53,336 bases of DNA. It comes from Paraburkholderia sp. Lineage in GTDB: Bacteria > Pseudomonadota > Gammaproteobacteria > Burkholderiales > Burkholderiaceae. The translations under genes were made by a program, and so were the position numbers. The DNA is taken from NCBI RefSeq assembly GCF_026225065.1, contig NZ_JAMFSB010000079.1, positions 1 to 53,336 of the forward strand, given 5' to 3'. Numbering within the stretch: the stretch's first letter is position 1; each line of letters opens with the position of its first letter. Shown here one piece after another: positions 43,003 through 48,672 of the stretch. The notes beneath the pieces are model-generated. The model had not been told where the DNA came from and ran no database searches. It saw only the letters and a program-made list of their open reading frames with translations.

Positions 43003-43860
43003 TTATAGCCAGTACACGACGACATACAGCCCGAGCCACACCACGTCCACAAAGTGCCAGTACCAGGCCGCGCCTTCGAACGCGAAGTGGTGATCCGCCG
43101 TGAAGTGACCGCGAATCACGCGGACCAGCACAACCGTCAGCATCGTGCCGCCGAGGAACACGTGGAAGCCGTGGAAACCGGTCAGCAGGAAGAAGGTCGA
43201 GCCATACACGCCGGAAGACAGCGTCAGGTTCAGTTCGTTATACGCGTGGTAGTACTCGAAGCCCTGCAGGAACAGGAAGCACAGACCCAGCAAGACCGTC
43301 GCGGCCAACCAGCCGATCGTCTTGTTGCGATGGTTTTCACGCAGCGCATGGTGAGCCACGGTCAGCGTCGCCCCCGACGAGAGCAGCAGCGCCGTGTTGA
43401 TGGTCGGCACCGGCCACGGCTGCATCGACTTGAAGCTCGACACCAGCGCTGCCGGACCGTTGTTCGGCCACACCGCCGAGAAATCCGGCCAGATCAGCTT
43501 GTAGTCGAGGCTGCCCAGCTCATGCAACGCAATTTGGCGCGCATAGAACAGTGCGCCGAAGAATGCTCCGAAGAACATGACCTCGGAGAAGATGAACCAG
43601 CTCATGCTCCAGCGGTATGACTTGTCGACGTTCTTGCCGTACATGCCGCCTTCGGACTCGGAGATCGCGTCGCCGAACCAGTGCCACAACGTGTAGAGCA
43701 GCCACAGCAAGCCAGCGAGTACCGTGATGGGCGCCCAGCTTTCGCCGTTAATCCACGCCGCCAGCGATGACAGCATGACCAGCAGCCCGACGGCCGCGCT
43801 GATCGGATGCCGCGACGGATGCGGTACGAAGTAGTACGGGCTCTCGTTTTGACCGCTCAT
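43003..43860 (-). CDS. ctaE: Cytochrome c oxidase subunit III
   Basis: 'YYFVPHPSRHPISAAVGLLVML', 'GFHGFHVFLGGTMLTVVLVR', 'AWYWHFVDVVWLGLYVVVYWL'. Confidence 0.95.
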   Translation of the reverse strand: MSGQNESPYYFVPHPSRHPISAAVGLLVMLSSLAAWINGESWAPITVLAGLLWLLYTLWHWFGDAISESEGGMYGKNVDKSYRWSMSWFIFSEVMFFGAFFGALFYARQIALHELGSLDYKLIWPDFSAVWPNNGPAALVSSFKSMQPWPVPTINTALLLSSGATLTVAHHALRENHRNKTIGWLAATVLLGLCFLFLQGFEYYHAYNELNLTLSSGVYGSTFFLLTGFHGFHVFLGGTMLTVVLVRVIRGHFTADHHFAFEGAAWYWHFVDVVWLGLYVVVYWL

Positions 43861-43989
43861 TCTTGATTCTCCACTTCAGTCCAGTTGTTCCGCTTGACCC
43901 GGTTTAGTCCGGCTGTCTCTTCGGCGATGCGTCGATACCGCACCGCTTCACTCTGATTTCGGAGCCACCTTCGGCCCGCTGTTGCCGCT

Positions 43990-44214
43990 TTACCCCACCA
44001 CCGCACGTACGACCAGAATCAATATGGCGATAAAGATGGCCGCACCGATCAACGCGGCCGCCACCACATGCAGAGGGTTGAGCTGTGCCGCATCCGACTC
44101 CAGGTCGCGCCGCTTGCGCACGCCGAAAAACGCCCAGAACACAGCCTTCATAGACTGGCCAAAGCTGCTCTTTCCAGCGCCGCCGCCATCGCCTTTACCG
44201 CTGTTGTCGCTCAT
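43990..44214 (-). CDS. DUF2970 domain protein
   Basis: 'KSSFGQSMKAVFWAFFGVRKRRDLESDAAQLNPLHVVAAALIGAAIFIAILILVVRAVVG'. Confidence 0.85.
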   Translation of the reverse strand: MSDNSGKGDGGGAGKSSFGQSMKAVFWAFFGVRKRRDLESDAAQLNPLHVVAAALIGAAIFIAILILVVRAVVG

Positions 44215-44253
44215 TACCGTCATCTTCCTTCGCCTACGACAACGTGATCGTCT

Positions 44254-44388
44254 TCAGGAGAAAAAGCTCCGTTTGACGAAGATGCCCACAAAAAAAGCGG
44301 CGGCGACAACAAACATGATCAAACCGAGCCGCAAGTTGCCCGCGCGGATTTGCTCGGGCGTACGTCTTTGTATGGGATTCCGGGTCAT
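44254..44388 (-). CDS. Cytochrome oxidase small assembly protein
   Basis: 44-aa MTRNPIQRRTPEQIRAGNLRLGLIMFVVAAAFFVGIFVKRSFFS between ctaD and DUF2970; absent from ORF track. Confidence 0.8.
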   Translation of the reverse strand: MTRNPIQRRTPEQIRAGNLRLGLIMFVVAAAFFVGIFVKRSFFS

Positions 44389-44507
44389 GCTGGAGTTTCT
44401 CGATACTTCACTTATAAGGAACACCGCTCTGTCACGCTACGACTCTACCGCTTCGCTGCACCCGGTCCGGCTTGCGCCTGGACCGGAATGCCGTTCGGCA
44501 CGATCGC

Positions 44508-46124
44508 TTACTCGACCGTCGGCGGGTTTTCGAACGTGTGGAACGGAGCCGGGCTCGGCACGGTCCATTCGAGGCCCGTTGCGCCGTCCCACGGCTTGTC
44601 GCTAGCCTTCTCAAGCTCGCCGCCGCCGCGGTAAGCCGGCAGTGCGACTGCAAACAGGAAGTACACCTGAGTCAGGCCGAAGCCGAAAGCGCCGATCGTG
44701 ATGACCTGGTTCCAGTCGGTGAACTGCGCCGGGTAGTCGGCGTAACGACGCGGCATGCCTGCGAGACCCACGAAGTGCATCGGCAGGAACGCGAGGTTGA
44801 AAAAGATCATCGAGCCCCAGAAGTGGATCTTGCCGCGCGTCTCGTTGTACATCCAGCCGGTCCACTTCGGCGACCAGTAGTACCAGCCTGAGAAGAGCGC
44901 GAACAGCGACCCCGCCACCAGCACGTAGTGGAAGTGGGCCACCACGAAGTAAGTGCCGTGGTACTGGATGTCGAGCGGCGCCATGGCGAGCATCAGGCCC
45001 GTCAGACCGCCGAACGTGAATACGAACAGGAAGCCCACCGCAAACAGCATCGGGGTTTCGAACGTCAACGAACCGCGCCACATCGTGGCGACCCAGTTGA
45101 ACACCTTCACGCCCGTCGGCACTGCAATCAGCATCGTGGCGTACATGAAGAACAACTGACCCGTCACCGGCATGCCGGTGGCGAACATGTGGTGCGCCCA
45201 GACCATGAACGACAGGATCGCGATCGACGACGTGGCATACACCATCGAGCTATAGCCGAACAGCGGCTTGCGTGCGAACGCCGGGATCACCTGCGACACG
45301 ATCCCGAACGCAGGCAAGATCATGATGTACACCTCGGGGTGCCCGAAGAACCAGAAGATATGCTGGTACATCACCGGGTCGCCGCCGCCTGCCGCGTTGA
45401 AAAACGAGGTGCCGAAGTGGCGGTCGAACAGCAGCATGGTGATCGCCCCGGCGAGAACCGGCATCACGGCAATCAGCAGGTAGGCGGTGATGAGCCATGT
45501 CCAGACGAACATCGGCATCTTCATCAGCGTCAGACCCGGCGCGCGCATGTTCAGGATCGTCACGACAATGTTGATGCCGCCCATGATCGACGAGGCACCC
45601 ATCAAGTGGACCGCGAAAATCGCGAAGTCCATGCCCGGTCCCATCTGCGTGGAGAGCGGCGCGTACAGCGTCCAGCCCGCAGCCGTTGCACCGCCCGGCG
45701 AGAAGAACGAGCCCACCAGCAGAACGGCGGCAACCGGCAGCAGCCAGAAGCTGAAGTTGTTCATCCGCGCGAAGGCCATGTCCGATGCGCCAATCTGCAG
45801 CGGCACCATCCAGTTCGCGAAACCGACGAAGGCCGGCATGATCGCGCCGAACACCATGATCAGGCCGTGCATGGTGGTCAACTGGTTGAAGAACTCGGGA
45901 CGCATGATCTGCAGACCCGGTTCGAACAGCTCGGCACGGATCATCAGCGCCATCACGCCCCCGGAGAGGAACATGGTGAACGAGAAGATCAGGTACAGCG
46001 TACCGATATCCTTGTGGTTGGTGGCATACAGCCAGCGACGCCAGCCATGCGGCGTCCCATGAGCATGGGGGTCACCGTGTACGTGCTCGTGGCCCGCAAC
46101 TACATCGTGTCCAACGCTAGACAT
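44508..46124 (-). CDS. ctaD: Cytochrome c oxidase subunit I
   Basis: 'WFFGHPEVYIMILPAFGIVSQVIP', 'WAHHMF', 'YFVVAHFHYVLV'. Confidence 0.97.
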   Translation of the reverse strand: MSSVGHDVVAGHEHVHGDPHAHGTPHGWRRWLYATNHKDIGTLYLIFSFTMFLSGGVMALMIRAELFEPGLQIMRPEFFNQLTTMHGLIMVFGAIMPAFVGFANWMVPLQIGASDMAFARMNNFSFWLLPVAAVLLVGSFFSPGGATAAGWTLYAPLSTQMGPGMDFAIFAVHLMGASSIMGGINIVVTILNMRAPGLTLMKMPMFVWTWLITAYLLIAVMPVLAGAITMLLFDRHFGTSFFNAAGGGDPVMYQHIFWFFGHPEVYIMILPAFGIVSQVIPAFARKPLFGYSSMVYATSSIAILSFMVWAHHMFATGMPVTGQLFFMYATMLIAVPTGVKVFNWVATMWRGSLTFETPMLFAVGFLFVFTFGGLTGLMLAMAPLDIQYHGTYFVVAHFHYVLVAGSLFALFSGWYYWSPKWTGWMYNETRGKIHFWGSMIFFNLAFLPMHFVGLAGMPRRYADYPAQFTDWNQVITIGAFGFGLTQVYFLFAVALPAYRGGGELEKASDKPWDGATGLEWTVPSPAPFHTFENPPTVE

Positions 46125-46168: not shown

Positions 46169-47830
46169 TCAGGCTGCGGAACTGATCTGAACACGGCGTG
46201 CCTCTTTGGGATCGCTGCCGCCCGTGACCGTTTCCGGCTTCTTTAAAATAATATGGTCTTCGGCAATGCCGGCTGCCTTCAGCGCGTCGCGCACAGCTTG
46301 CGCGCGCCTCTTCGCGAGCTTCGCGTTGAGGTCGGCCGAACCGGTTGTGTCCGTATAGCCCGATAGCGTGAACTTCGCGTCCGGGTGCGCCTTGGCGTAG
46401 TCCGCAGCGGCGGCGACTGCTGCCTGCGCGTCGCCCGGCAGCGTGCTCTTGCCAGTCTCAAAGTAGACGTTGGCCGGCAGGGCTGCCTGCGGTTGCGATG
46501 CTGCTGCGCTGTCCGAACCGCCAGAAGCCGGGGCCGGGGCTGCACCCGCTGCGCCTGACGCGGCGTCGCCGCCCGACGCTGCTGCGGCGCCTGATGCCGC
46601 ATCGGCGCCGCTAGCGGCGGCTGCACCGCTTGCGCCTGCAGCTGCGCCCGCGAGGTGGTCGCCACCTTCAGGCAGCTTGCCATTGCGTGCGTCCGCGACC
46701 TGCTTCGGCTGCAGAATGTCGCCCGTGTGATTGCCCCACGAGTTGCGCTCAAACGTGATGACGGACGCGATTTCGACATCGTTCAGCGTAGGTCCCCACG
46801 ACGGCATCACGTTCTTGCCCTTCAGCACGATGCTCACATGCTGAGCGATCGGGCCATTGGCGATCTTGCTGCCGTCGAGCGCCGGAAACGCACCACCGCC
46901 CTTGCCAGTCGGCTGGTGGCAGACGGCGCAGTTCGCCGCATAGACCTTGCCGCCACGCTCCATCAACTCGGCGAGGGTGTACGTCTTGTTCGGATCGTCA
47001 GCGCCGGCGGCCATTTTCTTCTGCTGGTCGTCGACCCATTTTGCATAGTCATCAGCCGAAAGCACTTCGACGACGACCGGCATGAACGCGTGTTCCTTGC
47101 CGCACAGTTCCGTACAGAAGCCGCGGAAGGTGCCCGTCTTGTCGGCCTTGAACCATGTGTCGCGCACGAAGCCCGGAATCGCATCCTGCTTCACGCCGAA
47201 GGCCGGCACGTACCAGGAGTGGACCACGTCGTTGGCGGTGGTGATGATGCGGATCTTCTTGTCGACCGGCACCACGAGCGGGTTGTCGACTTCCTGCAGA
47301 TAGGTGTCGGTCTTGGGCTGTTCGCCGTCCACCTCGGCACGCGGCGTGGTCAACGTGGAGAAGAAGTTGATGCCTTCGCCCGGACCCTTCACGTAGTCGT
47401 AGTTCCACTTCCACTGATAGCCGGTCACCTTGACGGTGAGGTCAGAGTTGGTGGTGTCCTTCATCGCGATGACCGTCTTGGTGGCGGGCAGCGCCATCAG
47501 CACGACGATGACGAACGGGACAATCGTCCAGATGATTTCAACGGTGGTGCTTTCGTGGAAATGGGCGGCCTTGTAGCCTTTCGACTTGCGGTGAGCAAAG
47601 ACCGAATAGAACATCACGCCGAACACGCCAATGAAGATCACCGTACAGAGGATCAGCATGAACGTGTGGAGGTGATAGAGCTCCTCAGCGATAGCGGTTG
47701 CAGGCGGCTGGAGGTTGATCTCGTTGACGGCGGGGCCGCCAGGACTGTCACCCACTGCCAGCGCGGCACCGGCAAAGAACATCCCGGTAAGCGCCAGCCC
47801 GCCCATCAGGGCTCGCTTGATTGTTTTCAT
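46169..47830 (-). CDS. ctaC: Cytochrome c oxidase subunit II with cytochrome c and C-terminal OmpA-like domains
   Basis: CuA 'GFCTELCGKEHAFMPV'; heme c 'CAVCHQPTGKGGG'; Ala/Ser/Gly linker; OmpA_C 'VYFETGKSTL...GYTDTTGSADLNAKLAKRRAQAVRDAL'. Confidence 0.95.
   Translation of the reverse strand: MKTIKRALMGGLALTGMFFAGAALAVGDSPGGPAVNEINLQPPATAIAEELYHLHTFMLILCTVIFIGVFGVMFYSVFAHRKSKGYKAAHFHESTTVEIIWTIVPFVIVVLMALPATKTVIAMKDTTNSDLTVKVTGYQWKWNYDYVKGPGEGINFFSTLTTPRAEVDGEQPKTDTYLQEVDNPLVVPVDKKIRIITTANDVVHSWYVPAFGVKQDAIPGFVRDTWFKADKTGTFRGFCTELCGKEHAFMPVVVEVLSADDYAKWVDDQQKKMAAGADDPNKTYTLAELMERGGKVYAANCAVCHQPTGKGGGAFPALDGSKIANGPIAQHVSIVLKGKNVMPSWGPTLNDVEIASVITFERNSWGNHTGDILQPKQVADARNGKLPEGGDHLAGAAAGASGAAAASGADAASGAAAASGGDAASGAAGAAPAPASGGSDSAAASQPQAALPANVYFETGKSTLPGDAQAAVAAAADYAKAHPDAKFTLSGYTDTTGSADLNAKLAKRRAQAVRDALKAAGIAEDHIILKKPETVTGGSDPKEARRVQISSAA
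46485..46660. repeat. Degenerate Ala-Ser-Gly-Ala/Asp coding repeat (linker in ctaC)
   Basis: 'AGASGAAAASGADAASGAAAASGGDAASGAAGAAPAPASGGSDSAAAS'. Confidence 0.75.
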
Positions 47831-47920
47831 AGATTCCTTACCCAAATTTTCCATTCAAACCCTCGACCCCGCTGGAAGGCTGCCTCGCGCTCCTCCTGAA
47901 CGGCGCGAGCCTCAATGCGT

Positions 47921-48394
47921 CTAACAACGCCTGAGCCACATGCGCAATTCGCCTGCAAATTGCGCGCGCCGATACTGCGCGAGGTGTTGCCCGATCATGA
48001 TCGTCTGGCCACGCGAAACCAGTTTGATGTGGTCACGCGGCGTTGCGCCCGGCTCGATCCGCACCCAACGTGGATTGAATTCGAACTGGGTGACCTGCTC
48101 CGCACTTACCCGCTCGATCACGAGCCGGTTCGGAAACAGCCTGATGCGTTCGTAATCCACAGCATGACGCGCGTAAATTGCAAAAGCGATACCGACCGCC
48201 ACTAACTCGATGCCGGTGAACGGCAGCACCAGCCAGGCGCCGATCAGATCCAGCATGAAGGCAATCAGCAGCGAAAACACCGCAAGCGACACATAGAACC
48301 ATACGAACTGCCTGGGCGACACCGAACAGTTGCGTTTCATCGTCCAGTCTTTGAGGACCGGTTCCGACTCCGCCAGCAGATCAGATGACGCCAT
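47921..48394 (-). CDS. DUF2244 membrane protein
   Basis: 'MKRNCSVSPRQFVWFYVSLAVFSLLIAF...LFPNRLVIERVSAEQVTQFEFNPRWVRIE'. Confidence 0.85.
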   Translation of the reverse strand: MASSDLLAESEPVLKDWTMKRNCSVSPRQFVWFYVSLAVFSLLIAFMLDLIGAWLVLPFTGIELVAVGIAFAIYARHAVDYERIRLFPNRLVIERVSAEQVTQFEFNPRWVRIEPGATPRDHIKLVSRGQTIMIGQHLAQYRRAQFAGELRMWLRRC

Positions 48395-48672
48395 CGCTGT
48401 CTCCTGCGAGTTGCCTCTTAACCCTGCCCGATACCGTTGCCTTATACCGCTTCGTACCGCCCTTCCCGCTGCCCAGCGCCTCGGGCCTGCCGCTGCGGAT
48501 GTGGGACGCCGAGCGACAAACTGACGCATTATAGGCGCGTTCTATGGCATCCACAAGCAACGCCCTATCGGCCCGCAAGCCAGTCCCGACAAGCCTCTGC
48601 GCCGTTTTGACGCACCTCGGGAAACACTTTCGTCCCGGTAATTTCAGACATAACAGATGCCCTCTTTCCGGT

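Follow-up and report, generated by a model that had tools for sequence, protein, structure and literature searches.

The closest described relatives of the protein reported here include subunit II of the caa3-type cytochrome c oxidases (CoxB/CtaC, TIGR02866), in which a COX2_TM segment and a CuA domain are followed by a C-terminal cytochrome c, and whose gene shares an operon with COX1 and COX3. The C-terminal domain of OmpA and Pal (PF00691; structures 3td4, 2hqs and 5u1h) has a common fold with an Asp/Arg pair for diaminopimelate (DAP), an Asn and the RRV motifs. In OmpA the DAP is bound by Asp271 and Arg286, a pair that is conserved in a protein with demonstrated peptidoglycan binding (PMC5974059). 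Domains of this type are also known from MotB and TagL, where an inner-membrane machine carries one in the periplasm at the end of a linker. In Paucibacter and other Burkholderiales, H+-pyrophosphatases, which are ion-pumping inner-membrane enzymes, have been described that carry an OmpA-like domain at the C-terminus, and that report calls the domain's role unresolved (PeerJ 2024, PMC11210485). An earlier survey of OmpA-domain hits included “ORF13” of B. pseudomallei K96243, a putative cytochrome c oxidase, which was dropped and not analysed (PLoS One 2009, PMC2716516). Our literature search, which covered mainly papers open without subscription, found no description of CoxB-, CcoP- or PufC-OmpA fusions, of a common subfamily or of a function for them. 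An initial sequence-only reading of the DNA studied here had guessed that similar architectures might already be in databases, and both orthologues and the 2009 hit are indeed there. The fusion architecture is already visible in the data but unexplained, and possibly represents a new principle if the anchor proposed below works.

The DNA analysed is a contig of 53,336 nucleotides from Paraburkholderia sp. (NZ_JAMFSB010000079.1), referred to as the window. It contains a coxB gene that reads as one uninterrupted frame of 561 amino acids with no stop codon inside (Table 1). A TAAGGA sequence lies a few bases 5′ of the ATG at 47830 (Met9), while nothing comparable precedes 47854, and Met9 is therefore the better candidate start, giving a predicted product of 553 amino acids; this agrees with the span of 46169–47830 originally assigned to the gene. 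Pfam recognises COX2_TM (E 1.5e-18), COX2 (E 1.1e-34), Cytochrome_CBB3 (E 3.7e-13) and, at residues 464–537, OmpA (PF00691, E 2e-14, 54.1 bits against a gathering cut-off of 27.2), and the NCBIfam CoxB model TIGR02866 scores 198.3 bits against a cut-off of 147.7. The CuA ligand segment GFCTELCGKEHAFM at residues 245–258 has the Cys-x3-Cys, His, Glu and Met all present, and H212, C247, E249, C251, H255 and M258 are invariant in the CoxB alignment. The sequence-only reading had described a CuA site, a heme c site, an Ala/Ser/Gly/Asp linker and a C-terminal OmpA_C-type domain; the two sites are where it placed them, a variable linker rich in Ala, Ser and Gly precedes the OmpA domain, and the domain itself is the one recognised by Pfam.

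Table 1. Features of the coxB locus in the window (aa, residues of the 561-residue frame) and proteins of the Burkholderiales survey that carry the OmpA domain
Feature	Position, loci or families	Strand	Basis
coxB/ctaC ORF, COX2 + cytochrome c + OmpA fusion	46169..47854	-	ORF reading, Pfam, NCBIfam
Signal peptide, Met9-Ala33, TAAGGA before it	47756..47830	-	sequence; hydrophobic stretch
COX2_TM, membrane hairpin of two helices, aa 44-124	47483..47725	-	Pfam; hydrophobicity
COX2 CuA domain, periplasmic, aa 139-264	47063..47440	-	Pfam
CuA motif GFCTELCGKEH	47090-47122	-	sequence
Cytochrome c domain, aa 298-368	46751..46963	-	Pfam
Heme site CAVCH, aa 309-313	46916-46930	-	sequence
Ala/Ser/Gly-rich hypervariable linker, aa 399-457	46484..46660	-	alignment of orthologues
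OmpA-type domain, aa 458-561, short KPExxTG...ARRVE subfamily	46172..46483	-	Pfam, alignments, model
Asp502 codon	46349-46351	-	within OmpA domain
Arg517 codon	46304-46306	-	within OmpA domain
ctaD, cytochrome c oxidase subunit I (COX1), next operon gene	44508..46124	-	Pfam
coxC/ctaE, cytochrome c oxidase subunit III (COX3)	43003..43860	-	Pfam
DUF2244 integral membrane protein, upstream neighbour of coxB	47921..48529	-	Pfam
H+-pyrophosphatase fusions	L213, L215-L217, L221, L223, L226, L227, L231, L240, L246, L263, L265, L270, L272, L289, L293, L294		
PufC (CytoC_RC, photosynthetic reaction-centre cytochrome) + C-terminal OmpA	f13, f20, f49: L232, L264, L268, L281, L287, L288, L290		
CcoP/FixP of cbb3-type oxidase + C-terminal OmpA	f44: L273, L275, L276		
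RND membrane-fusion proteins (adaptors) + subfamily OmpA	f31, f32, f38		
AmtB-type ammonium transporter, N-terminal OmpA behind signal peptide, single case	f5: L229		
Two-heme cytochrome c + subfamily OmpA	f3		
BON, DUF937 and DUF2853 proteins with subfamily OmpA			
Small proteins, only one membrane helix + linker + OmpA	L218, L222, L228, L230, L241-L244, L247, L282-L286, L295-L301		

The genes are ordered DUF2244, coxB, ctaD, two small ORFs and coxC. With a fused cytochrome c that has a CxxCH site and an operon shared with COX1 and COX3, coxB is the gene for subunit II of an oxidase of the caa3 type, with chemistry established as ordinary caa3, in which the fused cytochrome c and CuA pass electrons into subunit I. 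Separately, we observed that ctaG/Cox11, the assembly factor for CuB insertion, is absent between ctaD and coxC (43860–44507) in the window and at two further loci (L009 and L010), while it adjoins the corresponding cox operon at L011, L029 and L151. PF04442, the ctaG/Cox11 family, had no match in the window's draft genome, which is 86% complete, and none in the entire genomes that contain L009 and L010 (8.0 and 9.2 Mb). The window's ctaD retains its HPEVY/HH motifs despite the missing gene, and a Paraburkholderia clade seems to do without Cox11 when building its aa3 oxidase.

Scanning 84,980 species genomes yielded at least 80 full-length orthologues of the fusion in Paraburkholderia and Caballeronia, including one on the complete chromosome of P. 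xenovorans LB400 (NC_007951.1). The fusion is therefore real: a single ORF in 80 orthologues, the complete chromosome among them, excludes both an assembly artefact and two adjacent genes misread as one. A chance motif is likewise excluded as the source of the OmpA assignment, by the Pfam match together with a match in three-dimensional fold. The structure prediction proposed in the sequence-only reading was run with AlphaFold2, and the model of the last 109 residues reached a mean pLDDT of 84.8, while the full-length model, at 42, is too poor for judging geometry. Searched against the PDB with Foldseek, the domain model gave OprF, E. coli Pal, Burkholderia Pal and TagL (5m38) as top matches, and aligned with A. 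baumannii OmpA in complex with DAP (3td4, TMq 0.82, 2.0 Å) and with the pentapeptide (3td5, TMq 0.81); a profile search against PDB sequences returned the same OmpA/Pal-type families.

The coxB product contains the motif TDTTGSADLNAKLAKRRAQAV, as expected from the TDxxGxxxxNxxLxxxRAxxV-type pattern noticed at the outset, and in alignments with this motif and with OmpA/Pal structures D502 and R517 coincide with the DAP-binding Asp271 and Arg286 of OmpA. These two residues are identical in 81 of 81 orthologues, as are N510, R553 and R554. Loss of the binding pocket had been named as the finding that would count against a peptidoglycan-binding domain; instead the pocket appears to be kept, its residues being present, invariant and under purifying selection on a predicted fold like that of DAP-bound OmpA. 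The early end of the Pfam match, at model position 76–77 of 98, reflects no truncation: the domain closes with KKPETVTGGSDPKEARRV, a shortened form of the canonical ending specific to a subfamily. The canonical segment GRAxNRRVE is replaced by the short form KPETVTGGSDPKEARRV with RRV retained, and membership of PF00691 holds on score, fold and pocket, since the canonical ending is typical rather than strictly defining. The shortened C-terminal loop could change the pocket relative to that of canonical OmpA.

We consider it probable that the OmpA domain serves as a portable anchor to peptidoglycan and so tethers the oxidase to the wall. A caa3 subunit II has been extended by a flexible linker that ends in a compact OmpA-type domain. 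On this reading the domain would hold peptidoglycan by its diaminopimelate, using Asp502 and Arg517, and the inner-membrane oxidase would thereby be tied non-covalently to the sacculus, by analogy with the peptidoglycan-binding domains of MotB stators or of TagL in type VI secretion. The tether would fix or slow the oxidase laterally and leave its chemistry unchanged, with the linker serving as mechanical slack; the consequence may be reduced lateral mobility, or an effect on placement or on stability when the envelope is stressed. The topology of the COX2 and cytochrome c domains places the OmpA domain in the periplasm, as first suggested. The linker is 60 residues here and 27–62 among orthologues, and judged by chain length it is plausibly long enough, together with the CuA and cytochrome c domains, to reach from membrane to wall. 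An alternative role for the domain would be oligomerisation, dimerising the oxidase or linking it to other periplasmic complexes without a strong hold on peptidoglycan. OmpA C-like domains, such as that of PA0833, are able to form dimers in solution (PMC5974059), and the carriers of the subfamily include several bioenergetic complexes with a potential to cluster, but the most strictly kept residues include the D and R of the DAP pocket, which dimerisation would not require, and we regard this role as unlikely.

In a 150-genome sample of the family, three genera (g1, g3 and g102) contribute 42 genomes, every one of which has the fusion, and OmpA was found on CoxB in none of the 85 other CoxB-bearing genomes of that sample, representatives of which were read directly. 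We take the three genera, the window's own and two sisters, to be Paraburkholderia, Caballeronia and, very probably, Burkholderia, and ORF13 of B. pseudomallei K96243 is very probably an orthologue of the window's fusion. In a wider Burkholderiales survey CoxB-OmpA fusions were also found across families f1, f38, f46 and f49, and outside the order a phylum sample of 399 genomes showed no OmpA on COX2 in 14 long COX2 ORFs, among the matches listed. The sister genera g103 and g114 have a nearly identical CoxB that keeps the Ala/Ser-rich tail, lacks the OmpA domain and has ctaD close behind; a search 3′ of coxB in these genera found no OmpA remnants. As these genera and most of the order do without the domain on CoxB, it is dispensable for the oxidase.

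This pattern could also be produced by a near-neutral passenger, a single fusion passed down to three genera with little effect, as the close sister genera show neither domain nor obvious remnant and the oxidase functions elsewhere without it. Over 81 orthologues, however, pN/pS was similar in OmpA (0.186), TM/COX2 (0.179) and cytochrome c (0.157) and higher in the linker (0.41), so that purifying selection on the OmpA domain, as estimated from these sequences, is about equal to that on the catalytic domains. On a tree of the CoxB core, the presence of OmpA must have changed at least 3 times (fewest 5), indicating that the fusion was gained more than once in the order or lost several times, and the module recurs on unrelated partners. 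A passive passenger is in our view quite improbable, and we retain the wall tether as the preferred reading.

A search of 300 Burkholderiales genomes in which the OmpA domain by itself was the query gave matches in ORFs other than CoxB as well. These revealed a single OmpA subfamily with the shortened ending KPExxTG...ARRVE on ten-odd partner proteins, most of them checked by Pfam (Table 1). Using a profile built from 23 such domains (alignment A1, E ≤ 1e-24), the subfamily was found in 59 of 399 Burkholderiales genomes, and among the matches listed in the phylum sample its scores separate cleanly from other OmpA domains (at least 97 bits as against at most 77). Among 176 distinct subfamily domains the Asp is present in 174 and the Arg, Asn and RRV motif in all 176. 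The genome behind the window has eleven PF00691 matches, and the subfamily is found at one place only, this coxB. H+-pyrophosphatases with the subfamily domain occur in about a dozen Burkholderiales families and in one genome of the same class outside the order (L240). The small single-helix proteins are possible donors or stand-alone anchors.

The domain is C-terminal on H+-pyrophosphatase, CoxB and CcoP, and N-terminal on AmtB. The C-termini of H+-pyrophosphatase and CcoP are periplasmic, as is the N-terminus of AmtB (established for E. coli AmtB), and in the DUF937 and DUF2853 proteins a hydrophobic helix separates those domains from OmpA. With orientation taken from family knowledge for AmtB, H+-pyrophosphatase and CcoP, the domain is periplasmic in every case where topology could be judged. 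Attachment at either terminus follows the topology of the partner, and the module therefore ends in the periplasm, as expected of a peptidoglycan binder. In a tree with three OmpA proteins from the genome behind the window the subfamily forms one clade on a long branch (support 100/99), a separation that leaves derivation from an own-genome OmpA paralogue unsupported. Partner types interleave, with CcoP domains next to DUF937 domains within family f44 and the H+-pyrophosphatase domain next to the single-helix ones within one genome (G782), which indicates repeated domain shuffling, with many forks left unsettled by the 106 columns. That proton pumps, electron-transfer proteins and transporters repeatedly carry the domain would also suit an envelope sensor, in which contact with peptidoglycan or its loss is relayed through the linker to alter oxidase activity or turnover. 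The linker is hypervariable in both length (27–62 residues) and sequence, however, a poor fit with precise allosteric coupling, and a sensor seems very unlikely.

Extended beyond CoxB, the tether hypothesis would have the same subfamily reused as a periplasmic anchor on H+-pyrophosphatase, CcoP, PufC, RND adaptors, AmtB and others. The broadest form of the idea is that one dedicated, mobile OmpA subfamily acts as a plug-in anchor in Burkholderiales, through which many of the inner membrane's energy-converting machines (aa3 and cbb3 oxidases, H+-pyrophosphatase, the photosynthetic reaction-centre cytochrome, transporters) are fixed to peptidoglycan, and which gives the bioenergetic membrane a so far undescribed wall-based spatial organisation; this we put forward tentatively, at slightly under an even chance. 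That one domain has been grafted repeatedly onto proton pumps and electron carriers with no relation to each other suggests that the anchoring of such machines is under selection, and that Burkholderia-type bacteria may pin their inner-membrane energy machines to the cell wall. If so, a natural wall-binding oxidase bears on the arrangement of respiratory complexes in bacterial inner membranes and on their freedom to diffuse there, and with close relatives that lack the domain, wall tethering becomes directly testable through one small domain.

Compared with known systems, the subfamily ties the 2024 observation on H+-pyrophosphatases to oxidases and photosynthetic cytochromes. Those enzymes carry the same type of domain, and in our survey the same subfamily, on a different partner, and the accessible text of that report makes no link to CoxB or other carriers. 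Relative to other caa3 subunits II, the window's CoxB adds the linker and OmpA domain, whereas most Burkholderiales CoxB proteins examined end soon after cytochrome c. In contrast to OmpA and Pal, where the canonical ending reads GxG..PVASN...GRAxNRRVE and the carrier is an outer-membrane protein or lipoprotein, the domain here has a short loop and sits on an inner-membrane enzyme. MotB and TagL have the same overall plan, but here the carrier is a respiratory oxidase, for which a comparable role is proposed by analogy.
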